A DNA stretch of 25,718 bases from a virus: IMG/VR virus record IMGVR_UViG_3300047444_000128, positions 1-25,718 of that record. One strand, 5' to 3'. The notes beneath the pieces were generated by a model. It was not told the origin of the DNA. It searched no databases and saw nothing but the letters and a program-made list of their open reading frames with translations. The translations under genes were made by a program, and so were the position numbers. Below, in pieces: positions 3,079 to 23,957 of this stretch (position 1 is its first letter; each line of letters begins with the position of its first letter).

Positions 3079-3993
3079 TTATGCGGTCGGGAATTCGCCC
3101 CAAGCAGCGCGTGGATCATTGATGCCGAAGCTGTAGCGTTCGTAGGCCTTGACCAGCAAGTTGTCGGTCACGTTATCGACCCACATGTCGCTCTCGTACG
3201 GAATACGAAGCATGTGGATAAGGCCCTCGATATTCGTGGTCAGGAACCATGCAAAGTTTGAGGTGAGGAAGTCGAGAACGATGTGGCCTTCCGGAAGACC
3301 GCCGGACAAGGTCAGGATCGCGTTGACATCGTTATCCGCCGTGCCGGGACGAAGCTCGGTCTTTGTAAGACGGATAGCAATGCCTTCCAGATTCGGCGGT
3401 ACAACAAGGCGTCTGGCTCGAGCCAGAATTCTTAGACCGCGCTCGTTGACGAACTGAACGCGGACGTTGGTCATGTCGGCAAGAAGTGTCGATTCATTGA
3501 GTGATTTCGGCACCGATGATGTATTCGCCCATGTGCCACCGTCGAAGGGATGAACAGGCGAGAAGAAGGGCTGACCGTCGCCAACCTGAGCCGAATTGTA
3601 CGTCGTGCCCAGATTGAAGATGTTGGCCGCCTGAATTTCCTTAAACTGCGCGAAGGCTTCCTGCAGTTTGAGGTTCGTCGGATTGAACTGCGCCTTGTAG
3701 AGAAGATCGTCGATCGCCTTTCGGGTAATCGCGTAACCGAGAGCGACCTCGATATGCACGAATGCCCAAGTGAAGCGTTCGCCCGCCGCATTGTCGAATT
3801 GAGTTGCTGCGCCTTCGTCTTTCAAAAACGGCAGAGCGACAAACGCCATCTGCGTCGATCGTTCCACGGCCATCGAAGACTTGTGCGTCTTGAAGACCTT
3901 GTCCCACTGTCGCGGGATCATGTCGTAGCTGCCCCGGACGTCGAACAATCCGGGGAGCAACTCTGAGCGAATATTTGCCAGTGCGACGGGCAT
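3079..3993 (-). CDS. Major capsid protein (probable)
   Basis: A 304-residue protein with the look of a phage major head subunit. An N-terminal segment (MPVALANIRSELLPGLFDVRG) is followed by a region with FTWAFVHIEVALGYAITRKA and DDLLYKAQ, resembling the N-arm/P-domain area of Mu gpT-like capsid proteins. Later come RLVVPPNLEGIAIRLTKTEL and RPGTADNDVNAI, a pattern often seen in capsid subunits, and it ends at EFPTA. It forms the protein shell. Gene order (portal, GroES-like, scaffold candidate, then capsid) supports the call. The ATG has GGAG about 9 nt upstream. I assume the HK97 fold from general knowledge; no cleavage site is evident, and no separate protease gene is visible in the window. 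Confidence 0.85.
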   Translation of the reverse strand: MPVALANIRSELLPGLFDVRGSYDMIPRQWDKVFKTHKSSMAVERSTQMAFVALPFLKDEGAATQFDNAAGERFTWAFVHIEVALGYAITRKAIDDLLYKAQFNPTNLKLQEAFAQFKEIQAANIFNLGTTYNSAQVGDGQPFFSPVHPFDGGTWANTSSVPKSLNESTLLADMTNVRVQFVNERGLRILARARRLVVPPNLEGIAIRLTKTELRPGTADNDVNAILTLSGGLPEGHIVLDFLTSNFAWFLTTNIEGLIHMLRIPYESDMWVDNVTDNLLVKAYERYSFGINDPRAAWGEFPTA

Positions 3994-4604: not shown

Positions 4605-4681
4605 CCGAATATCTTTCGGTCTGGCTCTGTCTCACGCCTGCGCGAGACTGAGAGTCCTGTTACCTAAGCGGCTCGCTTCGG

Positions 4682-4718
4682 TTAAAAATCCGGGTCGCGG
4701 ACTCCGCTGACCGGGATT
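4682..4718 (-). terminator. Rho-independent terminator candidate
   Basis: On the minus strand an imperfect GC-rich stem (AATCCCGGTC paired with GACCCGGATT, one mismatch, with an inner GCGG/CCGC stem) is followed at once by TTTTTAACC. A stem plus U-run is the classic intrinsic terminator. It could end or attenuate transcription coming from the sugar cassette before the capsid genes. Confidence 0.6.
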
Positions 4719-4776
4719 GGCTCAACCCATACGGCGCGTATGGGGAACATGCGAATCACAATAGATACACAAATGT

Positions 4777-4800
4777 GCGGGATGGCAAGTGCCATCCCGC
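4777..4800 (-). terminator. Perfect 10-bp hairpin after the glycosyltransferase gene
   Basis: GCGGGATGGC at 4777-4786 pairs perfectly with GCCATCCCGC at 4791-4800 around a 4-nt loop, 7 nt downstream of the stop at 4808. On the minus strand it is followed by ACATTTGTG, which is only weakly U-rich. It may therefore be a weak terminator or a 3'-end stabilising hairpin. Confidence 0.55.
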
Positions 4801-4807
4801 CTCTGTA

Positions 4808-5677
4808 TTACTCTGCAGCCTGAAGAGCCGGTATCGGCGGTAGCTCTGGCGTGACCGGAACTGCCGTAACAGGCTCCTGCGGAGGAGCGGCAATCGGCAT
4901 CGGCCCAATTGGCGTACCGCCCGAAACGCCAATGTTCTCTATCGTTTTGTCATCGAGAGCCTTGACTTCGCCCATGGGCGGTGCCTGCTCATACATGTCG
5001 AGATATCGACCGGCGTAGTCAAATGGCCCAACATGGCTCATCCTGTAGCCGATCGCTGCCCAAGTTTGTCCACCGCATTTTTGCCAGCGAAGGCAGAAAG
5101 ACAGGTCTTCCGACACAACACCACGCTCCGGTAGATCAAGCTTTTCAAAGCAGCGTATGAGACGGTTAGTGCCTGCCTGCTGCAGTGTCTGGCCTGCCGG
5201 GTGAAGTCCTAGCCGTGTGTCGATCAATTCAGGCATCTGCTCGATCATCTTTGTCACAAGATCACGCCTGATGAGTGTACATCCCATGCCAACACCCTCA
5301 ACCAGCATGAAATTGCCCCTGCGCTCCGTCTGTGTAGCGCCGGTACCTGATCCGGCCCATGAGAGAGGCATCTTTCGCTGCGGATAGATTGCACCGATCA
5401 GAGGCTCGTCGAACAGGATCATATCGGTAACGATTTCCGGCGCAAATCCCATATCGGCGTCAATGAAAAGAAGATAGTCGACAGTCGGCATGGTGTCGTA
5501 CCAAATCGTCAGTGCCATGCCACGCAATTCGGCAATATCCGGAAACGACAGTGTACTGATTCCGCCGCCCATGCCCTTTGAATTGAGATGCTGTCGCAGT
5601 GCGTGGGTGGTGAGAAACGTGGTCGCTGTAACAATCTGACCGAATGCTGGAACGAAGATAAAAACATTCTTAGACAT
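4808..5677 (-). CDS. GT-A glycosyltransferase (289 aa), end of the sugar cassette
   Basis: A soluble glycosyltransferase-like protein that would transfer a sugar from a nucleotide donor. The N-terminal strand MSKNVFIFVPAFGQ is followed by VDYLLFIDADMGF, whose DAD (residues 73-75) is the DXD metal/nucleotide-sugar motif. A later VSEDLSFCLRW provides the acidic ED pair often seen near the acceptor site of GT-A enzymes. The last 45 or so residues are Pro/Ala-rich and probably disordered. No membrane segment is present. The start overlaps the methyltransferase stop by 8 nt (ATGTCTAA). The acceptor is unknown. As the cassette gene nearest the capsid gene, a virion protein is an attractive but untested acceptor. 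Confidence 0.85.
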   Translation of the reverse strand: MSKNVFIFVPAFGQIVTATTFLTTHALRQHLNSKGMGGGISTLSFPDIAELRGMALTIWYDTMPTVDYLLFIDADMGFAPEIVTDMILFDEPLIGAIYPQRKMPLSWAGSGTGATQTERRGNFMLVEGVGMGCTLIRRDLVTKMIEQMPELIDTRLGLHPAGQTLQQAGTNRLIRCFEKLDLPERGVVSEDLSFCLRWQKCGGQTWAAIGYRMSHVGPFDYAGRYLDMYEQAPPMGEVKALDDKTIENIGVSGGTPIGPMPIAAPPQEPVTAVPVTPELPPIPALQAAE

Positions 5678-6425
5678 TTGCAGGCTCTTTCGGATTTGCG
5701 GTTAAGCTCGGTAGCGCACCTTGGCTTATTTGCATCTTGTCTGGGATCTCTTGCCAAAAGAGGCCGCTCGAAAGTGATGTTTGATCCATTGCGTTCTTGA
5801 GGATCGATGAGTAGTCGCGGGTAATCACGAAGTCAGGACCGCTTTCTATATGCTTGAACCTGATCTTGTCCTCCCACAAAAAGTAAGTATTCCACAGCTT
5901 GGGGCCCTCACGAAGCCATCCCATGATGTCTGTCTCTGTGAAGCGAATGTATTCGACAATGGGATATTTCGCGATTATCCTTAGTTCCCCCTCGTACACC
6001 CAGCAGATATTCCTGTGGTGGTGATAGCCTCTAAACGGAGGTGAAGCACCATCTACACCTCGACCCAATTCGGCGATCGGTGACGGTGTTTCGATATATC
6101 CTGCCTTCGCTACCCGTTCCATTTCCTTGATGAGAAAGAACGGATTGTACATGTCCTCGATCACATGACGGCAGTAAATGAAGTCAAAACTCTTGTCGGG
6201 AAACGGCAATGGCGTCGTATTGAGATCTAGACTGACGATCTTGTCGTTTGGCACAGGGACCGGCCTGTAATCCACGAACATCGTTGCTCGTGGAAACGGA
6301 ACATAGCCGGGACCAATTTCGAGGACTTTAGCGTCGGCTGGAAGTCTCTTGCAGAGCCAATTGACTAGCGCGTCAATCGGACCCCAGTTCTTTTTGTCGA
6401 GGTCGTTCAGAGCGTCTGACGACAT
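5670..6425 (-). CDS. Class I SAM-dependent methyltransferase (251 aa)
   Basis: It carries the Rossmann SAM-binding signature VLEIGPGY (residues 34-41), an acidic residue after strand 2 (FVDYRP) and the post-motif segment FPDKSFDFIYCRHVIEDM (about 75-92) typical of Methyltransf_11-type enzymes. The substrate is not visible; a sugar or sugar-linked group is likely given its neighbours. The ATG at 6425 has a strong AAGGAG with 6-nt spacing, which fixes the start even though it overlaps the last 53 nt of the thiamine-diphosphate enzyme gene. An imperfect hairpin (6402-6423) covers the first codons and could modulate translation. Its stop overlaps the next glycosyltransferase start. Confidence 0.85.
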   Translation of the reverse strand: MSSDALNDLDKKNWGPIDALVNWLCKRLPADAKVLEIGPGYVPFPRATMFVDYRPVPVPNDKIVSLDLNTTPLPFPDKSFDFIYCRHVIEDMYNPFFLIKEMERVAKAGYIETPSPIAELGRGVDGASPPFRGYHHHRNICWVYEGELRIIAKYPIVEYIRFTETDIMGWLREGPKLWNTYFLWEDKIRFKHIESGPDFVITRDYSSILKNAMDQTSLSSGLFWQEIPDKMQISQGALPSLTANPKEPANV

Positions 6426-8202
6426 TAAGCACTCCTTCGTTTGTGTTCATGCAGTTCGCATATTCCTCGCGTGGGAGATGCGGCCACATGTCGGATATAT
6501 CGGCGGGTTTGAATTTCCCGTCTTCCATTGCAGCCTGCACACGGGGAGCAATCAATTCATTCGGGTCCATGTGCATAACGATTACGATCGGCCCCTGATG
6601 GGATATGTCGAATATCGTGTCCATCGCATGGGATAATGCATTCAGTGAATTGAATTCCATGGTGGTGATATTGAATGCCTTCGCCACCTTCACAAAGTCA
6701 GGAAGGCTCATGCCAGATCGAGGACCGGACATCACTTCACGCTTGAAGTGATTGTTCTGTGCGATCTTCATCGTGGCATAGCCATCATTCTCGTAGACGA
6801 ATATGGCCATCCGCAAACGGTGGTGCGCAATGGTCTGCAACTCCTGCAGGTTCATCATCGCACCACCGTCACCGGTAAGGCATATCACTGGGCCACATCC
6901 GGTGAATGCCGCACCGATCGCTGCAGGTATACCCCATCCCATTGGAGATACTCCACCAGAATGGATGAGACGCTGACCTGATCGCAACTTCAGTGTCTGG
7001 AATGTCGGTATGAAGCAAAATCCAACATCAGTAACCACGATCGCATCATCGGGCATTTGATCGGCTAACTGCTCGACAACTCCGTATGAACTAATGCCAA
7101 TAGAAGGAACAGGTATTACTATTTTCTCATATTTCTTTTTCATTCCCTCGCAATGCAATGCCCACTTTTCAAATCCGGGAAACGTATATTTTTCCTTGAA
7201 AAGCGTCAGAAACTCTTTTGCATCTGCGATAACACCAATGTCAGCCCTGATGGTTGGTTTCTTGTATATTTCCGCACCGTCTACATCAACGATGATCAGT
7301 TTTGCATTAGGTGCGAACAGATCAGATGCATGGCCTATCTGCGCAACAGTCAATCTCGTTCCTATCGCAAGTATCACATCGGCATTCTGAACTGCGAAAT
7401 TACTGGCTCGATCTCCAAAGATACCACATCGACCGATATATCGGTGATGATCTGTCGGCATGATATCTGCCGCACCCCATGATGATACGACGGGAATTCC
7501 AGCCAGATAAAATACAGTCCTGAATTCCTCGACGGCATCTGCGAGCCTCACACCATTACCAACGATAACAACTGGCCTCTTTGCAGAAGACAGAACATGA
7601 ATAACTTCATCTACTGCATTGGATAGTACGTCATCTTTCCATTCCAACAATGGAGCGATTAACTCTCCCCAAAGTTCATCTGGATCAATTTCCGCAGCCT
7701 GAATGTCCAGAGGTATCTCGATTAACACTGGACCCTTGCGTCCTGTATTTGCAATTCGAACAGCTCTCTCAAGCTCAAGTTTGAGATGATTTGTCTCCTT
7801 AATAGTCGCCACATATTTTGTGATCGGCCTCATTAGAGATGGCGTGTTTAGCTCATTCATACCAACCTGACGGCAACCACTGCGACCCTTCATGGTATGG
7901 CTTGTCACCTGACCGGCAATGATCAGCATCGGAATACTGTCGACGTATGCGCAGGCAACACCAGTCATCGCATTAGTGCCGCCGGGACCAGCCGTAACAC
8001 TGACGACCGACATCTTGCCGGTAACCCTCGCTTCTGCCTCTGCCGCCATGGCCGCAGCCTGCTCGTGCTGCATCGATATGACGTGGATATTGGGATGGTT
8101 GGCTATGGCATCATTGAGATGCATCGCGCCAGCACCGCACACCCCATAGACGCGGGGGGATAGTTTGGCGATGAAGTCTGCAACGTATTCTGCAACCTTC
8201 AT
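6373..8202 (-). CDS. Thiamine-diphosphate enzyme, acetolactate-synthase-like (609 aa)
   Basis: A full-length three-domain ThDP enzyme of the acetolactate synthase/pyruvate oxidase group, normally about 550-600 residues. The Pyr domain has the catalytic Glu in ISMQHEQAAAMAAEA (E47) and TAGPGGTNAMTG. The middle domain has RPVVIVGNGVR and ILAIGTRL. The PP domain has the metal-binding motif GDGGAMMNLQEL followed about 25 residues later by ENDGY. The chemistry is decarboxylation of a 2-keto acid, possibly with carboligation. In sugar pathways the relative YerE adds a two-carbon branch to a keto-sugar, which makes a branched-sugar role conceivable here. The start overlaps the radical SAM stop by 4 nt. 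A short C-terminal extension (last 30 or so residues) overlaps the methyltransferase gene. Confidence 0.88.
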   Translation of the reverse strand: MKVAEYVADFIAKLSPRVYGVCGAGAMHLNDAIANHPNIHVISMQHEQAAAMAAEAEARVTGKMSVVSVTAGPGGTNAMTGVACAYVDSIPMLIIAGQVTSHTMKGRSGCRQVGMNELNTPSLMRPITKYVATIKETNHLKLELERAVRIANTGRKGPVLIEIPLDIQAAEIDPDELWGELIAPLLEWKDDVLSNAVDEVIHVLSSAKRPVVIVGNGVRLADAVEEFRTVFYLAGIPVVSSWGAADIMPTDHHRYIGRCGIFGDRASNFAVQNADVILAIGTRLTVAQIGHASDLFAPNAKLIIVDVDGAEIYKKPTIRADIGVIADAKEFLTLFKEKYTFPGFEKWALHCEGMKKKYEKIVIPVPSIGISSYGVVEQLADQMPDDAIVVTDVGFCFIPTFQTLKLRSGQRLIHSGGVSPMGWGIPAAIGAAFTGCGPVICLTGDGGAMMNLQELQTIAHHRLRMAIFVYENDGYATMKIAQNNHFKREVMSGPRSGMSLPDFVKVAKAFNITTMEFNSLNALSHAMDTIFDISHQGPIVIVMHMDPNELIAPRVQAAMEDGKFKPADISDMWPHLPREEYANCMNTNEGVLNVVRRSERPRQKELGSD

Positions 8203-9341
8203 AGAAATCCCATATGCGGTGGAGCAGGCGATGTCGGGAAACTAACCTCGCCTTTTTGCAATTTATCCAGCCATGAATTCGTATTCGTCTGCAGGCAATT
8301 CGGGCCGCAATTCTTCTGCGCATCGAATTCATCGCTGGCGAGATAGTTCAGAACTTCCCAGTAACGATCGCTCTGGTAGATGTCGCGAAAACGATGCGTA
8401 CAGATATTTCCGATATGGAATTTCTTGTACCGCTCATTGAATAGCTGTCCGCAAGGTGCAATCAATCCATTGCCTGACATCTGGATAATGAACGGTGGTC
8501 CGTAGCATCTCTTGTAGTCTCTACGCCCTTCATCTGCGAGGCGTGACCACTTGACGGCAACCCTGAAGCCTTCATCGCTATACGTTTCTGCCTCTTGGAA
8601 TACAGGAAAGAGCGCATCGTACTTGCGATAATCGACACCAAGATCATTATCGCGACTATCAGCCGTGTGCTTGAAGATAAGGTAGTCGGGTCGCAGCGTC
8701 TTCGCCAAGCGACATAAAGGTATAATCTGGTCAGCATCTTGTGGCATCAGGACCATCTGCATATTGATATTCACAGGCAGATTGTCTCTGTGCTTTATCT
8801 CCATGGCATCCTTGATGTTCTGAACCACGCGATCGTAGTCCCGCTGCTGCAGGCCCATGATCTCGGAATAACGCTTTCGATCTCCACCGGAGAAATTGAA
8901 CCGGAGATACGTCAGGTGCGGGAGAATTCTCTCCAGAACCTTTTTGGTCAGGCGCACACCATTTGATGACATGCCTATCTGGATGCCAAGACGTCCACCA
9001 TACTCAATCGTCTCATCGAACCACGGCACAACCGTAGACTCACCATCACTGATAAGACTGATGCCCTTGACACCGATCTCAGCAGCATCATCAAGATAGT
9101 CTAGCGCATTCTGCTTGGTAATGACCTCGCCCTCGGATGACTGCAGCTGGGCGTAACAGAAATTACACGCCGCATTGCACTTGCGCGTCCAAGCCACATC
9201 CATGGTGATGGGCGCTATGCGCTCGCCACGCTGCCATGCCTCGACACGATCGCGATACCAGCCAACCTTTGTGCCATCGAGTTGCAGATCGTGGGGAGAT
9301 CCTACGATCTTGTCGACCAGTTCCGGCATGGGTGATGTCAT
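8199..9341 (-). CDS. Radical SAM/SPASM-type enzyme (380 aa)
   Basis: The [4Fe-4S]-SAM motif CNAACNFC (C55, C59, C62) is clear, followed by GISLISDGES, MSSNGVRLT and YLRFNFSGGD, matching the beta strands of a radical SAM barrel. The C-terminal part has further cysteines at C279, C297 (NGLIAPCGQLF) and the pair C345/C349 (CGPNC), as in SPASM or twitch auxiliary-cluster domains. Such enzymes perform oxidations, epimerisations or peptide and sugar modifications; the substrate cannot be read here. It is translated with the ThDP enzyme (ATGA overlap), so the two may act in sequence. The ATG has GAAAGG 7 nt upstream. It follows a gap with a hairpin after the small gene at 9399-9782. Confidence 0.88.
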   Translation of the reverse strand: MTSPMPELVDKIVGSPHDLQLDGTKVGWYRDRVEAWQRGERIAPITMDVAWTRKCNAACNFCYAQLQSSEGEVITKQNALDYLDDAAEIGVKGISLISDGESTVVPWFDETIEYGGRLGIQIGMSSNGVRLTKKVLERILPHLTYLRFNFSGGDRKRYSEIMGLQQRDYDRVVQNIKDAMEIKHRDNLPVNINMQMVLMPQDADQIIPLCRLAKTLRPDYLIFKHTADSRDNDLGVDYRKYDALFPVFQEAETYSDEGFRVAVKWSRLADEGRRDYKRCYGPPFIIQMSGNGLIAPCGQLFNERYKKFHIGNICTHRFRDIYQSDRYWEVLNYLASDEFDAQKNCGPNCLQTNTNSWLDKLQKGEVSFPTSPAPPHMGFL

Positions 9342-9363
9342 CTTGAAACCTTTCAGGAGAATG

Positions 9364-9385
9364 CCTCCCGCATTTGCGCGGGAGG
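9364..9385 (-). terminator. 8-bp hairpin between small gene and radical SAM gene
   Basis: CCTCCCGC at 9364-9371 pairs perfectly with GCGGGAGG at 9378-9385 around a 6-nt loop, 13 nt downstream of the stop at 9399. On the minus strand CATTCTCC follows, so the U-run is poor. It is a terminator-like, attenuating or 3'-stabilising hairpin. Confidence 0.5.
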
Positions 9386-9398
9386 GGACGCGAGCGAT

Positions 9399-9782
9399 CT
9401 ACTTTTTCTTCTTGCCGTTCTTGATGAAGTCTATTGCTGCCTTGCCAGTGAGCGGCATCTTGCTCCGCTCCTTTGCTTCAGAGGCCTTGCGAGCCTTTGT
9501 CATCTGTTCAGCAACCACCGGATCTCGGCGATCGAGGAAGGACGGTATCTCAGTCTCGACCGGAGGATAGCCGATGGCTTCTGCAACCATAGCCCTGACC
9601 TCAACCGGAACCGGTTTTGGCTTGGCCATGTCCTGCACAACCAATCCAGTCTTGATCTGGGCTTCCAGCCTTCGCCTTTGCCTTTCCAGCTTTCTCAACT
9701 CATTGCTGGCACGGGTGAGGCGCTTTAGCCAACGCTTGCATGCCGCATCGACAGCACTGTGCTTTTGCTCTAGTGTGAGCAT
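9399..9782 (-). CDS. Small basic coiled-coil protein (127 aa), hairpin-flanked
   Basis: A 127-residue, Lys/Arg-rich protein. The start chosen is the ATG at 9782 (MLTLEQKHSAVD) because GGAGAAGACA lies directly before it; an in-frame upstream ATG at 9872 would read through the hairpins. Residues about 10-47 form a strongly helical segment (KRWLKRLTRASNELRKLERQRRRLEAQIK). A Pro-rich linker follows, and the end is a lysine run (NGKKKK). It has no enzyme motif and could bind nucleic acid. Hairpins lie on both sides, an arrangement like that of phage morons, although no promoter was recognised. Function unknown. Confidence 0.75.
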   Translation of the reverse strand: MLTLEQKHSAVDAACKRWLKRLTRASNELRKLERQRRRLEAQIKTGLVVQDMAKPKPVPVEVRAMVAEAIGYPPVETEIPSFLDRRDPVVAEQMTKARKASEAKERSKMPLTGKAAIDFIKNGKKKK

Positions 9783-9805
9783 TGTCTTCTCCTGATTTAC
9801 GGTTT

Positions 9806-9854
9806 CAAACAACCCGGCGGCGTCAACCGCCGGGCCAGCCGGTGATTCCGGCTG
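9806..9854 (-). terminator. Double hairpin, terminator-like
   Basis: Two perfect inverted repeats sit side by side: CCCGGCGG 9813-9820 with CCGCCGGG 9827-9834 (loop 6), and CAGCCGG 9836-9842 with CCGGCTG 9848-9854 (loop 5). On the minus strand the second stem reached is followed by TTGTTTGAAAC, a modest U-rich tail. It lies after the stop at 9866 and before the gene starting at 9782, so it may limit read-through between the heptose-like and radical SAM halves of the cassette. Confidence 0.6.
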
Positions 9855-9865
9855 ACAGGAGAAGT

Positions 9866-10054
9866 CTACCATGAGGGGTCCGTGATTTTTCCCAATTTGA
9901 TGTTTGTGGTCACGCCAGATAAGGACAACTTGCGTGTTTTCGTAAACTTGACATCAGGCTTACCAAGCTTAACTCGTGCGTTTTCCGTCGTCAGCCAGTG
10001 AAGAAACATAAGTAACTCGGGCGTATAATCAGCAATAATATTTTTATTTTGCAT
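9866..10054 (-). CDS. Small hypothetical protein (62 aa)
   Basis: A 62-residue basic protein, starting MQNKNIIADYTPELLMFLHW and ending KITDPSW. It begins 1 nt after the stop of the sugar O-methyltransferase gene and ends just before the double hairpin, so it is the last gene of that transcript segment. There is no membrane span or known motif. Tight spacing supports it as a translated gene. The function is unknown; an accessory role in the sugar cassette is only a guess. Confidence 0.55.
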   Translation of the reverse strand: MQNKNIIADYTPELLMFLHWLTTENARVKLGKPDVKFTKTRKLSLSGVTTNIKLGKITDPSW

Positions 10055-10055
10055 T

Positions 10056-11429
10056 TTAGTACGTCCCGATTTTTTCCACGCCGGACAGGGCGTCGACGAG
10101 TTTCTTAAGAGCAGGATCTCCTGTTGCCTTGTGAGCGCATGCGGCTATCCACAATATCTCTTTCGGACACAGTATGCGTCTCAGATCATTGTTCTTTGTA
10201 ACGATGCTGAGAAACATCTTTGCATTATCGACCGTCATGTCCTGACGCAGCAACTCGAGCCCTTCCAGATATGTCTCACGATTGAAAAAGCATCCCTTCA
10301 GGACTGACCAGTCGGAGAATTTCTGAACCGGAGTAGCTCGTTCGTATATCGTTTCCACAAAATCACGTCCGCAACACATCATCTTGACGAGAGTAACATC
10401 TGCAGTCTGCGATCGTGTTGCCCACGCCATGGACGGCCTTGGTGCCCAGAATGTACGGCTCTCGTGCATTGCCGTAATGGCCTGACCCATGTAATTGAGA
10501 GAATAGAAAAACCTTGGCTTATACTGATCAAGCCACGTCATATAGAACGACACCCAAGTATCGCTCATCTCCTGCATTGATCCGACATTAATAACCAGAT
10601 CGCTCATGGCTGTGTATTCGTGCAGCCTGCCGATCGGCACAAGAACAATGCGCGTTCCGGGATCTTTTCCTTCCCAGTATCCTATGTCGTCGCCCAGTTC
10701 AGCCCTTAAGCAAACTTCCGAATAAAATAGTGACTCTGGCAGATCGACGATGACGTAGCGCCGAATCTTTGCCGTCTTGTTTATCATCCAGAGGCGAGCC
10801 AGAGCGCCATAGCCGCCACCAATCTCAAGTATCCTGTCAAGCATTGGTACGTCTTCCTGACATCGGAACATGATCCGCATGTGCCAGTAGAAGACGTTAC
10901 TTGTCAGTCTCTTCTCCCCGTAACACCAGTGCAGTGTGTCTGGAATTGACTTTACATTGTCATGCAGACTGAATTGAGTTTCCAGCCTGTGCGGAAATTC
11001 CTCATTCACAAGCTTTTCGAATATCAGAAACTCAGACTTGCGTGGCTTGGCTGGTTCCCTGTGATCAAACGGTATCTTCGCCTGCGCATAATGAAGAACG
11101 TCACGGCATGTCGTGAACTGCTTTGTGTTCTCGTAGAAAGACTTCGACCATTCCAGCCATCGCGAATCCAGACATCCATCTATATCAACGACCGGAGGAT
11201 CTAGTAATCGTGCAGCCTCCAGATGCCTTCTGGCATCGGATAGAATTGTTTCGTCCCTGCCATCCCTTGGATCGCTTGCAATTGCCTCTGCCATCCACTT
11301 TTCATGCGATGCCTCAGAGTCATTGAACTTATTGCGGGCAACTGCTTCCTTCTCATAGAAGGCATCCATGTCTTCGTCATCGGCGAGCATGTAACGGTCG
11401 CCGGTATGATCGGAAACGGCAACCTTCAC
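10056..11429 (-). CDS. Putative sugar O-methyltransferase (457 aa)
   Basis: A large SAM-dependent methyltransferase. The SAM motif ILEIGGGYGALARLW (around residues 200-214) is followed by the acidic strand-2 motif YVIVDLPESLFYSE and then DLVINVGSMQEMSD. This set matches the family annotated as putative sugar O-methyltransferase (TIGR04371/NanM type, from memory), found in polysaccharide clusters. The N-terminal 170 or so residues are helical and precede the catalytic domain. I chose the GTG at 11429, whose GTGA overlaps the stop of the previous gene; an ATG at 11390 is an alternative, and the longer frame to 11510 starts inside the upstream gene. It would methylate a sugar hydroxyl during or after assembly of the glycan. 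Confidence 0.82.
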   Translation of the reverse strand: MKVAVSDHTGDRYMLADDEDMDAFYEKEAVARNKFNDSEASHEKWMAEAIASDPRDGRDETILSDARRHLEAARLLDPPVVDIDGCLDSRWLEWSKSFYENTKQFTTCRDVLHYAQAKIPFDHREPAKPRKSEFLIFEKLVNEEFPHRLETQFSLHDNVKSIPDTLHWCYGEKRLTSNVFYWHMRIMFRCQEDVPMLDRILEIGGGYGALARLWMINKTAKIRRYVIVDLPESLFYSEVCLRAELGDDIGYWEGKDPGTRIVLVPIGRLHEYTAMSDLVINVGSMQEMSDTWVSFYMTWLDQYKPRFFYSLNYMGQAITAMHESRTFWAPRPSMAWATRSQTADVTLVKMMCCGRDFVETIYERATPVQKFSDWSVLKGCFFNRETYLEGLELLRQDMTVDNAKMFLSIVTKNNDLRRILCPKEILWIAACAHKATGDPALKKLVDALSGVEKIGTY

Positions 11430-11629
11430 AGTTTTTGTCTTTCTTCCTTGGTCATGTGCATACGGAGCTTTGAGTCGTCGCCTTTGTTTTCCTTGAACAC
11501 CTCGACCCACTTACCCGGCATCAAGGCGCGAAGCAGTCTCTCATACTGCAGCATTGATGCACCCTGTACATCAGCAGGTATGTCAGATCCAAACTTGATG
11601 ACGACGTGAAGAGGATGATCAAGCGCCAT
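11426..11629 (-). CDS. Small hypothetical protein in heptose-like cluster (67 aa)
   Basis: A 67-residue protein, starting MALDHPLHVVIKFGSDIPAD and ending in a charged tail (MTKEERQKL). The ATG at 11629 has GAGG 7 nt upstream and overlaps the end of the isomerase gene by 11 nt. Its stop overlaps the GTG of the methyltransferase. The linked overlaps on both sides argue that it is translated. It has no recognisable domain and could be an adaptor for a neighbouring enzyme. Confidence 0.65.
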   Translation of the reverse strand: MALDHPLHVVIKFGSDIPADVQGASMLQYERLLRALMPGKWVEVFKENKGDDSKLRMHMTKEERQKL

Positions 11630-12164
11630 CGATAACCTCAAACAGAAAATCATGCAGGATGGCTAGGTGAACATTCTCGACAACGCCATAGCTGTGCGAG
11701 GGAACGTAGAAATTCACTCCACCCTTGCCGCGAATTTTATTATCAGGCTCAAACCCGCTCAACGTAACCACATTCATGTGCAGGCTACATGCCGTGTCGA
11801 CGGCCCTTACGATGCTTGAACTGTTTCCTGAACTGGATATGGCAAACAAAACGTCTCCAAGCCTGCCATGGCTCATCATTGGCACCCTGAACACGCTGTC
11901 ATAGCCAATATCGTTACTGATGCATGTCAATGACGCGGGATCATTGAAGCATAGCGTGGGCAAACCACCATTCTTCTGATAGTCCGCTGCCATATGGCTG
12001 GCGATCGATGCAGACCCTCCATTGCCTATGAAGATAAGCCTCGCACCGTGCGGACCAGCTGTGTCTCTCGCCATCTTGAGATAACCAGCCACAGACCCGT
12101 AGCCGTGTTCCTCGACCTCGACATGCTCCAGCGCGGATACGATGTCGTTATAGAATTGTCTCAT
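11619..12164 (-). CDS. SIS-domain phosphosugar isomerase, GmhA-like
   Basis: A single SIS domain of 181 residues, close to GmhA (about 190). The phosphosugar-binding motifs are present: FIGNGGSASIASHMAADY (residues 45-62) and ISSSGNSSSIVRAVD (109-123), with a C-terminal helix VENVHLAILHDFLFEV. GmhA converts sedoheptulose 7-phosphate to D-glycero-D-manno-heptose 7-phosphate, the first step to nucleotide-activated heptose. By-eye alignment puts H57, D61, E163 and H171 where E. coli GmhA has its zinc ligands H61, E65, Q172 and H180. Two of the four are therefore conservative changes, and a related ketose phosphate substrate is possible. It is coupled by ATGA to the upstream kinase-nucleotidyltransferase gene, the next enzyme in the pathway. 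Confidence 0.85.
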   Translation of the reverse strand: MRQFYNDIVSALEHVEVEEHGYGSVAGYLKMARDTAGPHGARLIFIGNGGSASIASHMAADYQKNGGLPTLCFNDPASLTCISNDIGYDSVFRVPMMSHGRLGDVLFAISSSGNSSSIVRAVDTACSLHMNVVTLSGFEPDNKIRGKGGVNFYVPSHSYGVVENVHLAILHDFLFEVIDGA

Positions 12165-13579
12165 GCCAAGAGCGCCTCGACAGTCTGTATGATTTCCTGA
12201 CGGTTTACATGCCGCCGATGACCTACGATCGATGTCTTGATCGCTCCTGCTATATTCCCAACGAATGCAGCCATTTGAACCGGCAGACCAGTTGCTACCA
12301 GAGGCGCACTAACCGCCATAACGGCATCACCGGCACCCATCGTATCAATTCCCCCAGACACAAATGCTGGTGCAAGACCGGCACCCTTGAGATCCATCCA
12401 CCTAGACCCAAACTTGCCGTGCGTTACGACCATCTGGTTGCACCCGGTAAGGCCGCGCAATCTCTCAATAACAATATCGATGGGATCTATCTGCATACCA
12501 GCAGCAAGTCTTGCCTCTGGATCATCAATGCATATGAATTTTGGCTTTAGATACTTGGTGACAGTATTAAAACCGTAATTCCCTGCATTGCTTTGCGAAT
12601 TAACCGCGAGAAAACGCGCCCACTCAAGAGTGTCACGCTCCTTCACTTCCAGAAGACCATGCCCAAAGTCCATCGCAATGACGACATCAGATCCTGCAAC
12701 CACTTCACTAAGTTGCTCCTGAAACTTCCTTCTCCTGACGCTGGAGAGGCACAATCTCTGCTGCGAGTAGACATCGAAGATCTTCCTGTTGAAGTCCTTG
12801 TCGACGTATCGCGTCTTCTTGACGTATTCGGTCGGTGAAATTCCCTCGGAGAACTTCCATTCACCATGTTTGCTTGCGGCAATCGCGCCGCCCTCGAATT
12901 GCTCGCATCCAACCTCTACTACGGCAAGCATCATCTCCTTGGATGATTTGCCAAGACCCTGCACATACCGGTATTCGTCGACGATCGTCTCGCCGACAAA
13001 CGATATTCTCAGCTTGTCTGCCTCGTCGAATGCCGCAAGTATGGCGCTCCTGAAATCAAGATTCTTTGCATGCTCCAGATACTTGACCACGTCCTCGGAG
13101 AACATCTCCGATTTCAGGATTGCACTTGACGATAGCTTCTCTGTGTCTGTGACCACGAGCCTGCCCCCCACTGACTCCACGGCCATTCTTTCAAGATCCA
13201 GCCCTGCATCATTGCTGCCTTTGTAATCGATTCCCTTGACGTAGATGGCGGGTTTGATTCGAGAAATGACTTCCACTGCAGATGGGCTGGAATTAATGAC
13301 GACCTCATCAACGCATGATAATGCCTTAATGGCTGCCGCCCTCTGCTCTGCTGTGAACCTTGGCCGTCCAAGTCCCTTGTCGACATATTTGTCATCCGTA
13401 ATGCTCACTACAAGACGATCGCCAAGCTTTCTGGCTTCCTGCAAATGCCTGATGTGACCGACATGCAATAGATCGAAGCAGCCGTGCGCAAGGACCGTGC
13501 GCGGTGCCGTGACGAGATGGTCGACAGACCAGACGCCGTTCAAGACCTCTTGCGCGGTTCCCACCACGCCCTCGCGCAA
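12161..13579 (-). CDS. Bifunctional nucleotidyltransferase-PfkB kinase (HldE-like, reversed domains)
   Basis: Two fused enzymes. Residues about 27-160 form an RfaE2-type nucleotidyltransferase with GCFDLLHVGH (HxGH at 39-42), GRPRFTAEQR and YVKGIDYKG. Residues about 190-470 form a PfkB/ribokinase-type kinase with VGETIVDEY, ICIDDPEAR and the catalytic GIDTMGAGDAV (D418). HldE phosphorylates heptose 7-phosphate at C1 and later adenylylates heptose 1-phosphate. Canonical HldE has the kinase first; here the order is reversed. The donor nucleotide (ATP or CTP) cannot be read. The start is uncertain: TTG at 13579, GTG at 13564 or TTG at 13543 are all possible and none changes the domains. It pairs with the GmhA-like gene downstream. 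No GmhB phosphatase or HldD epimerase is in the window. Confidence 0.87.
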   Translation of the reverse strand: MREGVVGTAQEVLNGVWSVDHLVTAPRTVLAHGCFDLLHVGHIRHLQEARKLGDRLVVSITDDKYVDKGLGRPRFTAEQRAAAIKALSCVDEVVINSSPSAVEVISRIKPAIYVKGIDYKGSNDAGLDLERMAVESVGGRLVVTDTEKLSSSAILKSEMFSEDVVKYLEHAKNLDFRSAILAAFDEADKLRISFVGETIVDEYRYVQGLGKSSKEMMLAVVEVGCEQFEGGAIAASKHGEWKFSEGISPTEYVKKTRYVDKDFNRKIFDVYSQQRLCLSSVRRRKFQEQLSEVVAGSDVVIAMDFGHGLLEVKERDTLEWARFLAVNSQSNAGNYGFNTVTKYLKPKFICIDDPEARLAAGMQIDPIDIVIERLRGLTGCNQMVVTHGKFGSRWMDLKGAGLAPAFVSGGIDTMGAGDAVMAVSAPLVATGLPVQMAAFVGNIAGAIKTSIVGHRRHVNRQEIIQTVEALLA

Positions 13580-13695
13580 CCATTTGGCAAATCTTCTGAC
13601 TTTAATTCCACATCAGAAGCGTCTTCCCATCCATTAAGGTTTTTAGCGGCAACCTTTGCCGCAATCTCTGCAATTTCCCTCATTGATAACATCAT
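13540..13695 (-). CDS. Small hypothetical protein (51 aa)
   Basis: A 51-residue frame with ATG at 13695 overlapping the stop of the glycosyltransferase (ATGA); a second ATG follows at 13692. It begins MMLSMREIAEIAAKVAAKN, an Ala/Glu/Lys amphipathic helix, then an acidic linker and a Trp pair near the C-terminus (ARAWWEPRKRS). It fills a gap of over 100 nt between the glycosyltransferase and the kinase-nucleotidyltransferase and overlaps the start region of the latter. The coupling and natural composition favour a real gene of unknown function. Confidence 0.6.
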   Translation of the reverse strand: MMLSMREIAEIAAKVAAKNLNGWEDASDVELKSEDLPNGCARAWWEPRKRS

Positions 13696-14597
13696 GCAAA
13701 CGCCTGCTTCAGTGCCGGTATGCTCGTCGGTGGCGTCAGAATACGCTGGAATGCATTGGCCAAGGCTGGATCATATCCGGGATCAGCAAATATCGCAGGC
13801 AGCATGTCCATGGCTCTCTTCTTCAAGCGAATATAACGAGGATCTTTCATGTTCATGGATGTTGATGGCATCGAGCGCACATGATCATTGAGAATGATCG
13901 ATCGCTGGTCGATCATAGAGAAATTCGCTGCCAACATGTTTTTGCGCCAGTCATCATCGGAAAGGGCAACCAGAACCTTCATGGCCTCGGAGTGCCTTAC
14001 CCTATAGCAGGCATCAAAAAAAGTCGCCCACCAAGCAGGCTCACGCATTTCCTGTGTCGGTGCAGCACGGCTCTGATCGGTTCTATGGCCGCCATAAGCA
14101 ATGCGACCAATCATCTTGCCGATGTCGTCCGTCCAGTGATCACAGAACCAGTACGGAAAATAATCAGGCTGGATATATCCCAGCAGATCCACCAGCTTTC
14201 TCGTCATTGATAGCGAACCGGTAAAACTCAGGTTGGCCATGTTGGCGTAGACAAAGCCAATTCCGTCAGGAAACCTCTTCGCCGCCTCTAGGATCTTGTC
14301 GTCGTATCCGGGTGTTACGTACGGATCGTCGTCAGCCGCTACCGTGTAGACATCGGCTGGAAGCGTCATCGCCCTGTTCCACTTTGCAGCAATCGTATCC
14401 TCGCGCTGCTGCACGTTGATCAGAACACGTTCGTGGATTTTCTGCTGTACGAGGTAGTCATATGGTGCCGGATCATCGTGATCCAGCTGAACCTGCATGA
14501 CTGTCTCTTTGTTCGTCCAGTTTGCTACTGATTTTCTGATTGTATCGCAGAGTAACTCGGGGCGACCGCGTGTCGCCAGCGAGATGACAAGCTTCAT
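13692..14597 (-). CDS. Family-2-like GT-A glycosyltransferase (301 aa)
   Basis: The N-terminus MKLVISLATRGRPELL is the first beta-alpha unit of GT2-type enzymes, followed by VYTVAADDDPYVTPGYDD with the DDD motif (residues 89-91) that binds metal and nucleotide-sugar. It has no membrane helices, so it acts in the cytoplasm. The C-terminal half (WFCDHWTDDIG, and a helical tail) is likely acceptor-specific. It opens the sugar cassette: its ATGA overlaps the stop of the probable head protein gene upstream, tying cassette expression to head-gene expression. Donor and acceptor are unknown; a heptose-type donor made by the next genes is the simplest idea. Confidence 0.85.
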   Translation of the reverse strand: MKLVISLATRGRPELLCDTIRKSVANWTNKETVMQVQLDHDDPAPYDYLVQQKIHERVLINVQQREDTIAAKWNRAMTLPADVYTVAADDDPYVTPGYDDKILEAAKRFPDGIGFVYANMANLSFTGSLSMTRKLVDLLGYIQPDYFPYWFCDHWTDDIGKMIGRIAYGGHRTDQSRAAPTQEMREPAWWATFFDACYRVRHSEAMKVLVALSDDDWRKNMLAANFSMIDQRSIILNDHVRSMPSTSMNMKDPRYIRLKKRAMDMLPAIFADPGYDPALANAFQRILTPPTSIPALKQAFA

Positions 14598-15361
14598 TCA
14601 CCCGGCTCCGCTAGCTTGTGTGACGGGGCTGGAGCATCCAGTGCCCGGTCGATCGACATGCGAATATCGCCACCAGTACCGCGATATTGCTTTCCCATCT
14701 CAAAACCGTCACCCATGCTCTTGCGCAAACCGGAAAGCTTGAGAGACTCGTTTCGATCAGAGATCAATTGCTTTGCAAGACGCAATTCTTCGGCGCGAGC
14801 CTGATTTCCCATCTCTTCAGGACGCTCCTCAAGCCGCATGCCTCCGCGAACAATCTCACCCTTTGCACCCGGCTGTATGAGAATTCCTGCATGCCTTTCG
14901 GCAGGAACAGATCGCCATCCGCTTTGATACATGTACTGCATCTGGTCGCGGGCGATATCGTTATTTCCAGTTACAGAAACAGTATTCCACTGATATTCCC
15001 AGCCTTTTGGTATCATACTATTTGGCACATCGAACTGATCATGCGAGTGAAGATTGCCGCGAGTAAGAACCTCGCCGCCGCGACCAATAAACTCAGTCCT
15101 GCCATTGGAGCGAACAGGAATGGCTCTGGCCGCAGCGACGGGCTCTGCAGGGGAGGCAACACCCTGCACACCCTCATTAAACTTGTCAGCTAACTTCTTC
15201 TCGATCTCTTCGCGTTGCGCTGCTTGCATTGCTGCATACCCATCATCGGCTGGCTGCTGTACCTCCGCTGCACGTTTTGCAGCCTTGGCCGCTCTGGCCT
15301 TTTCTAGATTGGCACCGCGTACCTGCTTGATGTCTGTGGTCTTCTGGATTTCGTCTTCCAT
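14594..15361 (-). CDS. Probable head-associated protein (255 aa)
   Basis: I chose the ATG at 15361 (MEDEIQKTTDIKQVRG), with GAGG 6 nt upstream; the longer frame to 15535 runs through the previous gene. Residues about 15-60 are an Ala/Lys/Glu helix. A central globular part follows, with NSMIPKGWEYQWNTVSVTGN and QMQYMYQSGWRSVPAERHAG, a pattern I associate with unnamed proteins encoded next to portal and capsid genes in many phages. The C-terminal third is helical and charged. It sits directly before the sugar cassette. A virion or assembly role is likely, but no precise function can be given. Confidence 0.72.
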   Translation of the reverse strand: MEDEIQKTTDIKQVRGANLEKARAAKAAKRAAEVQQPADDGYAAMQAAQREEIEKKLADKFNEGVQGVASPAEPVAAARAIPVRSNGRTEFIGRGGEVLTRGNLHSHDQFDVPNSMIPKGWEYQWNTVSVTGNNDIARDQMQYMYQSGWRSVPAERHAGILIQPGAKGEIVRGGMRLEERPEEMGNQARAEELRLAKQLISDRNESLKLSGLRKSMGDGFEMGKQYRGTGGDIRMSIDRALDAPAPSHKLAEPGE

Positions 15362-15368
15362 GACAACC

Positions 15369-16361
15369 TCACTGCGTGTCGTAGGTGCGGTCGTATTGAC
15401 CGGATGCTTCCATTGCTCTCTTGCGGCGGGCGAATTCCTCAACACCGATCGGATCGCCCTTCTTGAACCGCTTTTTCCCTGTCGGATCGTCATAATTCCA
15501 GATGTGAGTACCGTCGACTGCTGCCGCTGCCTCAAAGGCCCGCAGCGTCACTATCTTCTTTTCCACGGCACCACCTGATCCAGCTGATCCATTCACTGGA
15601 GCCACCGCACGTTGCGCCTGTTTCTTCGGCTGCTCCGCACCCGGCCTTCGAACATCGTCGCCCTCCGTCACCGGAGCTTCTGCCTTCCTGATCCCGATAA
15701 ATTTCTCAACATGCTCGAAATAAGCCGCCGTATCCGGTGTCAGACCCTCCGCAACGGCATCATGATGACCGGCGGTAAGCTTGGCATTCTTCCTGCCATC
15801 GAGGATGTATTCCTTGTGCTCTCGCAGCCACTTTGCTGTCGGCTCAGAACGGTTAGCAACGTACGACTCGACGATGTCGACCGGAGATGATGGCGCATCC
15901 CGTCTAGGCGCATTCTTTCTCGCCTCGATATTCGATTTTGCTTCATCGTAAGTGCGCAAATCAATGCGGGCCTGATTCATTCGATCGGCTGCGTCGACCT
16001 CTGCCTCTGCGTCTCCGCTTTGTTTTGCTGCGAGCACATCGCGTTTTGCGGTATCGAGCGCAGCCTGTGCGCCAGCCAATGCTGTCGTAATTGTATCCAG
16101 ATTGGACGATGTCGCTGCCTCACGAGCCGCCTGTACTTCACGTCTCGCAACTGCTGCTGCATTCTCTGCCTCCGTAGCGCGGACTAATGCAGCATCTCTA
16201 GCCTCCTGATCGGCCTTCGACCTTGCCTCAAGTTCCTTGTACTGCTCCGATAAATCCTTGACCGGATCTTTCGTGGCAGCAGGCTCAACAGGATCAGGAT
16301 CGATCTTGATAATTACATCAGGGAGACTGTCGGAAGTCGGCACATTCGGTTCTTCTGGCAT
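15369..16361 (-). CDS. Candidate scaffolding protein, coiled-coil (330 aa)
   Basis: A 330-residue, highly charged protein. The N-terminus is acidic and Pro-rich. Residues about 38-150 form an almost continuous Ala/Glu/Arg coiled coil (EARSKADQEARDAAL and onwards). A mixed region with KWLREHKEYILDG follows, then a basic C-terminus (GKKRFKKGDPIGVEEFARRK). Internal scaffolds usually have a long helical rod and a basic capsid-binding tail, and they are encoded between portal and capsid, as here. The ATG at 16361 is favoured over the GTG at 16364 because GGGAGG lies 5 nt upstream of it. The assignment is by composition and context, not by sequence family. A tape-measure-like or internal virion role is less likely at this length. 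Confidence 0.6.
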   Translation of the reverse strand: MPEEPNVPTSDSLPDVIIKIDPDPVEPAATKDPVKDLSEQYKELEARSKADQEARDAALVRATEAENAAAVARREVQAAREAATSSNLDTITTALAGAQAALDTAKRDVLAAKQSGDAEAEVDAADRMNQARIDLRTYDEAKSNIEARKNAPRRDAPSSPVDIVESYVANRSEPTAKWLREHKEYILDGRKNAKLTAGHHDAVAEGLTPDTAAYFEHVEKFIGIRKAEAPVTEGDDVRRPGAEQPKKQAQRAVAPVNGSAGSGGAVEKKIVTLRAFEAAAAVDGTHIWNYDDPTGKKRFKKGDPIGVEEFARRKRAMEASGQYDRTYDTQ

Positions 16362-22995: not shown

Positions 22996-23246
22996 TACCG
23001 TTCTTTCCAGTACGGAAATGGCGGACCATCGTGCGGTCCCGGTTGCTCGACAGTTGTTTCATACCGAGGCTCAAGATCACCACGCACATATTGCCGGATC
23101 AATTCCAACTCCCTGTCTGGCCATTGCTTCTGAACACCATTGAGTTGGAAGACTGTACATAGCCGCTCGATGGCCGCCTCACAGCGTTTGATCCGTTCTT
23201 CTGCATTTATAACATGGTGCATTGCTAAATTTGCAGTGTCTGTCAT
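22995..23246 (-). CDS. Small helical protein (83 aa)
   Basis: The start chosen is the ATG at 23246 (MTDTANLAMHHVINAEERIK), whose ATGA overlaps the stop of the lipoprotein gene; the longer frame to 23375 is inside that gene. A helix (INAEERIKRCEAAIERLCTVF) is followed by a polar C-terminus with GPHDGPPFPYWKER. No enzyme motif. It is encoded between the SGNH lipoprotein and the terminase. Function unknown. Confidence 0.7.
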   Translation of the reverse strand: MTDTANLAMHHVINAEERIKRCEAAIERLCTVFQLNGVQKQWPDRELELIRQYVRGDLEPRYETTVEQPGPHDGPPFPYWKER

Positions 23247-23818
23247 GGCGTCAGTATCCTGCTCACTATCGCCGAATAACCCGCTCCATTCGGATGCAAG
23301 CCATCCAGCGTCAATCCAACCATCGAACCCGTCTGTGCCACCAATTGCGGATGACAATTTGCATGCGCTGCACATACCGCATTGAGCCTAGCCACTACGG
23401 CATCAATCTTCATGTTGTTCAGTGGACTGCCGGGTAACGTAGTGGCTAGTTGCACTTCATCCAGCTGAATAATGCCGAGAAAGAATATCGTGATGGCAGG
23501 CGAGATAGCACTGAGCATATTCACATAGTCGGAAACGATCGTATCCGGATCATCCAGATTATTGATCCCGCCTTCCAGCAACAGCAATTGCGTACCAGCC
23601 GGGATTGTCCCAACTCGAGCCGCTATCTGCGTCGATGTCTGCTGGCCAATACCTAGATTGACTGCAGTGTTGAATGGTGGCGCAAGACTTGGCTGGAACG
23701 GAGCCATGAGGCTGATGACACTGTCACCAAGCATGGCGAAGTTTGATGATGATTGCTGCTTGTCATTGCAGCCAGCCAATACGATCGCGAGCGCAAGAAG
23801 GCTATTGCGGATTATCAT
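23243..23818 (-). CDS. SGNH/GDSL hydrolase-like lipoprotein (191 aa)
   Basis: From the ATG at 23818 the protein starts MIIRNSLLALAIVLAGC, a signal peptide with lipobox LAGC (C17), so the mature protein should be lipid-anchored. The SGNH blocks follow: LGDSV (S33 nucleophile), GIGQQTS (block II glycine), EGGINN (block III, about 83-87) and DGLHPNGAGY (D172, H175, block V). Such enzymes hydrolyse esters, often O-acetyl groups on cell-wall or surface polysaccharides. An anchored esterase could modify the host envelope during lysis or block superinfection. The longer frame upstream overlaps other genes and lacks a signal peptide. It is coupled at both ends. Confidence 0.8.
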   Translation of the reverse strand: MIIRNSLLALAIVLAGCNDKQQSSSNFAMLGDSVISLMAPFQPSLAPPFNTAVNLGIGQQTSTQIAARVGTIPAGTQLLLLEGGINNLDDPDTIVSDYVNMLSAISPAITIFFLGIIQLDEVQLATTLPGSPLNNMKIDAVVARLNAVCAAHANCHPQLVAQTGSMVGLTLDGLHPNGAGYSAIVSRILTP

Positions 23819-23957
23819 CGCGCAACTTCTCTGCCAATGCCTGCAATGCCCATTCGATCTCCTCAAGCTTGCGAACAATGTCTGCATTACCCGGTGTCTG
23901 AAATACATTGCTGGCCCTATGCCGCGTAATGCCTTCCAATATTTCCTGATAGGTCAT
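23802..23957 (-). CDS. Small helical protein (51 aa)
   Basis: An ATG at 23957 overlaps the upstream stop (ATGA) and opens a 51-residue frame, MTYQEILEGITRHRASNVFQ, then a helix DIVRKLEEIEWALQALAEKL and DDNPQ. It ends 17 nt inside the lipoprotein gene. Natural amphipathic composition and coupling support it. Function unknown. Confidence 0.6.
   Translation of the reverse strand: MTYQEILEGITRHRASNVFQTPGNADIVRKLEEIEWALQALAEKLRDDNPQ

Follow-up and report, generated by a model that had tools for sequence, protein, structure and literature searches.

The window considered here is a virus record of 25,718 bases, in which the genes surrounding positions 4605-4807 lie on the minus strand. This non-coding stretch, hereafter the leader, separates the stop codon of an upstream gene (289 aa) from the ATG of a downstream gene (196 aa), with the major capsid gene next in line; on the minus (coding) strand it can be read as six hairpins, H0 to H5. 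From upstream to downstream, the features are:

4808..5677, minus strand: gene that precedes the leader and encodes 289 aa (phrog_1574 / glycosyltransferase-like), given as context only
4777..4800, minus strand: H0, a 10-bp hairpin, GCGGGATGGC-ACTT-GCCATCCCGC, just past the stop codon that ends the preceding gene
4720..4748, minus strand: H1, GTTC-CCCATAC-GCGCC-GTATGGG-TT-GAGC, with an RNGCY loop, a two-base bulge and a conserved GTTC/GAGC foot
4687..4718, minus strand: H2, AATCC..GCGG-AGT-CCGC..GGATT, then a short T run (the terminator form of the original prediction)
4662..4682, minus strand: H3, ACCGAAGC-GAGCC-GCTTAGGT, with an RNGCY-type loop
4625..4654, minus strand: H4, GTCTCGCG-CAGG-CGTGAGAC, with outer pairs CTCT/AGAG
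4605..4619, minus strand: H5, CCGAA-AGATA-TTCGG, abutting the start codon
4014..4604, minus strand: 196-aa predicted head decoration protein, first gene past the leader (phrog_37556, function unknown)
3079..3993, minus strand: major capsid protein (phrog_371 major head protein; Mu gpT-like, with annotated capsid proteins in isolates)

The original prediction, made from the letters of the sequence, held that six consecutive stem-loops precede the capsid genes and that one of them touches the start codon. All six are indeed found on the coding strand, H5 ending at position 4605 with the ATG directly adjacent at 4604-4602, and the genes that follow are the predicted decoration gene and then the major capsid gene. 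The minus strand of the leader folds at -91.8 kcal/mol, compared with -62.0 +/- 4.4 kcal/mol for dinucleotide shuffles (z -6.72, 0/200 shuffles as good), and the plus strand reaches a z of -4.07 relative to shuffles. Folding against shuffled controls and compensatory changes in relatives had been put forward as checks, and both speak for a real structure, with compensatory stem changes in the window's own clade (clade A) and strongly covarying stems in a sister clade (clade B).

The 196-aa protein is conserved alongside the capsid protein in relatives, and its structural model (pLDDT 83) has a beta-rich fold. Nearly every top-ranking solved fold belongs to a protein that decorates or stabilises the head, namely those of HFTV1, TW1, FCWL1, T1, Sf11, Pam3, P21 SHP and lambda gpD. 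The structural Z values, of about 5-9, are not decisive in size alone, and the list is consistent; a role as head decoration protein is predicted on this modelled fold, and the predominance of such matches would place the leader in a decoration-capsid operon. Neither the profile of the decoration protein nor the capsid protein matched any PDB sequence, and prokaryote genomes, queried with an alignment of the decoration protein, yielded a single relative, on a Rhizobiales MAG contig. Portal and GroES-like genes are among the conserved upstream neighbours in isolates. In the window, a block of sugar/surface-modification-like genes (4808-15535: TPP enzyme, radical SAM/SPASM, methyltransferase, cytidylyltransferase and PfkB kinase, glycosyltransferase-like) separates the GroES-like gene from the decoration gene; cultured relatives lack it at this place and have a few smaller genes instead. 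A GDSL-type lipase/acylhydrolase gene also lies between the small and large terminase genes of the window (23243-23908).

Relatives were collected by searches with the capsid and decoration proteins, and the sequence upstream of the decoration gene was taken from 238 loci, leaving 146 non-redundant leaders after removal of those at least 90% identical. Hairpin arrays occupy the same place in these 146 homologous leaders, with a mean of 2.96 hairpins per leader against 1.44 in dinucleotide shuffles, and the same loops recur from one leader to another. Two loop classes can be distinguished: a pentaloop R-N-G-C-Y in clade A, and an 8-nt loop CYCGGYGY closed by C-G in clade B, neither of which is among the top loops of shuffled leaders. 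The global folding z, strong in the window, was set aside as evidence across relatives, being moderate in clade A (median -1.6) and uninformative in clade B (median -0.45, not unusual), where the signal lies in the loops and in covariation rather than in overall folding energy. DNA similarity between the window and GenBank phages was not detected, and the metagenomic MW202675.1 is the one GenBank record seen carrying a clade B leader; this record (L101:2300-2800) also harbors a tRNA-like stretch and several further hairpins ahead of the leader. In the cultured relatives HTVC023P, HTVC027P, CRP-902, QDWS535, DSL-LC04, Pag-Yong1 and RLK, gaps of about 15 to 80 nt replace the leader, the capsid-protein relatives in culture with such a short gap comprising Pelagibacter, Roseobacter, Alcaligenes, Planktothrix and Caulobacter phages. 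Three GenBank records of differently named phages, OQ594354.1, OL906435.1 and PP438419.1 (Synechococcus MinM2, Planktothrix Pag-Yong1 and Pra-JY27), share an equal length of 65,014 bp and an equal match score, and possibly represent one phage recorded under three hosts.

In clade A, comparison of the H2 and H4 stems with those of the two closest relatives that are distinct from the window (L112 and L115) reveals how the structure is retained. The outer stem of H2, AATCC/GGATT, becomes ACTCC/GGAGT and AGTCC/GGACT in L112 and L115, where the T run is not kept, and H4 shows compensatory stem changes to GTTACGCG-CTGG-CGCGTAAC in the former and TTCACACG-CTGG-CGTGTGGA in the latter. The H5 stem CCGAA/TTCGG adjoins the ATG in both, and H0, which has no U-run and could possibly form the 3' end of the upstream transcript, has a weaker counterpart there. 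Loops of the window are of the RNGCY class in H1 and H3, with a close variant (GAGTC) in H2 and other loops in H4, H5 and H0. More widely, among pentamers with flanking stems of at least 7 bp in 60 clade A leaders, RNGCY accounts for 40/46, versus 10/540 elsewhere in the same contigs, and the first hairpin follows a layout GTTC-stem-loop-stem-TN-GAGC common to 19 leaders, whose stem changes are compensatory. The last codons of the upstream gene in L084/L115 also hold a hairpin of the clade A loop class, CTGCAAGCYGCAG, just before the stop codon.

Loops are also alike within a single clade A leader, since 24/45 pairs of pentaloops are identical (10.5 expected) while the stem bases are mostly not alike. 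This agreement could partly reflect shared ancestry. Once near-duplicates were removed, 14 leaders were left for this test, and with leaders sharing hairpins removed, the second loop base still agrees in 12/20 pairs (6.3 expected, p 0.006), the stem bases show no agreement, and the whole pentaloop reaches p 0.07 in the same filtered set.

In clade B, two hairpins with the common loop C[CYCGGYGY]G are found at approximately -85 and -44 from the ATG. These hairpins were chosen by their loop alone, with no stem required, before covariation was scored; paired cells nevertheless reach 92.8% and 86.6%, and covariation 0.797 and 0.681, a level attained in 0/500 shuffles for each. When the pairing partner was slid by 1-3 bases, covariation fell to at most 0.31 and 0.14, and the signal was gone. 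The loop hairpins of this clade are almost confined to leaders (95, versus 7 in the remaining ~1 Mb on both strands), and the ribosome-binding site falls within a third hairpin in 67/70 leaders, versus 20.8 expected when the upstream 25 nt are shuffled. As an independent test, a viral collection was scanned with the DNA pattern of the -44 hairpin alone, and at least 120 stretches matched; among the matches listed, a homologue of the decoration gene lies downstream in 80/80 loci, the motif stands 20-30 nt from the ATG in 76/80, and a second copy of the loop is present upstream in 64/78. Kissing loops, considered in view of the CCGG of clade B loops, found no support, because the palindrome-breaking change at loop position 2 (C to U) has no matching change in a partner.

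Several features suggest that these elements act as RNA. A conserved structure with compensatory changes immediately precedes the members of a single gene family, the loops, which are asymmetric, lie in sense orientation, and G-U pairs outnumber A-C mismatches in the stems when read on the sense strand (16:3 in clade B, 50:20 in clade A), an A-C on this strand being equivalent to a G-U on the opposite one. Sigma-70-like sites with at least 9/12 matches end just ahead of the first hairpin in 21/58 leaders of clade A, where shuffles give 0.9, and in 36/70 of clade B, where they give 1.4; the window itself has no good promoter match ahead of H1. In L023, L029, L043, L061 and other clade B loci, three elements stand in a row, namely a canonical intrinsic terminator (AAGGGAGCTTCGGCTCCCTTTTTTTT in L029), a TTGACA..TATAAA promoter-like site and the leader, which makes a clean operon boundary. 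With regard to operators acting at a start codon, clade B displays both a conserved-loop hairpin near the ATG and a ribosome-binding site enclosed in a hairpin; in the window, the hairpin next to the ATG is H5, whose loop falls outside the conserved class, and the leader has no clear ribosome-binding site of at least 4 bases.

Taken together, these comparisons identify a genuine RNA leader family, conserved and not yet named, with related leaders in well over 100 phage contigs, whose function we infer. The structured capsid-mRNA leader of the original prediction is backed by covariation, conserved loops, the fixed site before the decoration gene, the promoter-like sites of relatives and the ribosome-binding-site hairpin of clade B. 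The reading that we favor, with a probability of roughly 0.55, is that positions 4605-4807 form a structured 5' UTR of the decoration/major-capsid mRNA that would control translation or stability via a candidate loop-binding factor. In many relatives, a promoter just upstream would place the first hairpin close to the start of the transcript. Loops that are conserved while their stems vary freely are as expected of ligand binding sites, and the likeness of loops, and not of stems, within one leader suggests a shared trans-acting ligand with a lineage-specific loop preference. Such a factor would recognise the loops at several copies; it would most likely be an RNA-binding protein encoded by the phage, although a host protein is possible, and autogenous control by a head protein that binds its own mRNA is a guess. 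Recognition of the loops would in turn set the translation and/or the lifetime of the capsid mRNA, for example if the factor stabilises or opens the hairpin at the ribosome-binding site. Translation control, as named in the original prediction, is plausible but an inference.

Plain stabilisation of the mRNA is the first of the alternatives to be weighed, and we consider it distinctly less probable: the structured 5' end would block a 5'-end-dependent RNase and make the capsid mRNA long-lived with no specific ligand. It fits the promoter-like sites that end shortly ahead of the first hairpin in many relatives, the high expression expected of capsid genes and the arrays of stable stems with short loops, but mere stability needs no common loop sequence on differing stems, nor does it call for loop likeness inside one leader. 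Next in order, and unlikely in our view, comes an antitermination element acting on the nascent RNA of the head operon, like HK022 put RNA or lambda nut boxB. Hairpins just behind promoter-like sites in many relatives, the two conserved-loop hairpins of clade B and the intrinsic-terminator-like hairpin just upstream in several loci (L023 and L029, for example) would all suit this mechanism, whereas the position fixed to the start codon (-85, -44), together with a further hairpin that holds the ribosome-binding site, points to translation.

The U-run terminator form of the original prediction is real but weak, and a terminator or attenuator between two operons, the role that it evokes, ranks third and is improbable. 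The run GGATTTTTAACC does follow H2 with its TTTTT, and H0 lies directly past the upstream stop codon; the run is, however, partly paired inside H2 and absent from relatives, in which loops and stems are kept, and H0 and most other hairpins have none. The G+C-rich hairpin with an unpaired, conserved U-run that defines an intrinsic terminator was thus not found in the leader of the window, H2 being the sole hairpin with a U-run. Last in order, and very improbable, is an element without an RNA role, either a dispersed repeat or one that works as DNA, such as a palindromic repeat or a site of packaging or replication. Repeated palindromes do occur, such as the CGCAGCGAGCCGCAGCG repeats in L020/L123, but clade B hairpins are nearly leader-only within their contigs, they always precede the decoration gene among the matches listed, and both the sense-strand G-U bias and the asymmetry of the loops run against it. 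The packaging site also proposed in the original prediction is unlikely: it is the start codon of the decoration gene, and not the terminase genes, that fixes where the element lies, and the stems tolerate G-U pairs on the sense strand.

A structured 5' UTR read by a loop-binding factor might further represent, although we would put this somewhat below even odds, an undescribed family of phage RNA operators, made of tandem hairpins with one loop code per lineage (RNGCY or CYCGGYGY) and a phage protein that co-evolves with them (the decoration or capsid protein, perhaps) and would set head-protein synthesis in dsDNA tailed phages. Capsid and decoration proteins have to be supplied in balance for a head to assemble, and a widespread leader with repeated loop-specific hairpins before these genes suggests that capsid supply may be controlled at the RNA level in a large, mostly uncultivated group of tailed phages. 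The two distinct loop codes also provide a compact set of RNA hairpins that is directly testable.

How does this leader compare with known systems? At gathering score, no Rfam 15 family matched in the window or in 13 relatives, and a relaxed threshold gave sub-threshold, chance-like matches only (E 0.17 or worse); phage non-coding RNAs of Rfam resemble the leader as structured RNAs adjoining phage structural genes, with no family match here. We found no description in the open-access literature of a tandem-hairpin leader before dsDNA phage decoration and capsid genes. The coat-protein operators of MS2 and PP7 are conserved-loop hairpins near a start codon that are bound by the capsid protein. 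The leader is alike in its conserved-loop hairpin near the start codon, but these operators belong to RNA phages, whereas the leader belongs to a dsDNA phage and has several copies upstream of decoration and capsid genes. HK022 put RNA and lambda boxB are small hairpins close behind a promoter, in which the loop is the specificity element (a pentaloop in boxB), and they act in antitermination of early transcripts; small hairpins near a promoter are a shared trait, and RNGCY differs from the GNRA-like loop of boxB. ANTAR target RNAs likewise place a tandem pair of conserved-loop hairpins in a leader, but these carry hexaloops, in which the conserved bases are different. Among known mechanisms, the nearest is the translational operator of T4/RB69 gene 43 (DNA polymerase), a hairpin with conserved loop bases located ~40 nt before the start codon (PMC3014915). 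This operator is a single hairpin that precedes a replication gene, whereas the leader described here carries 2-5 hairpins with different loop sequences and precedes a head operon.
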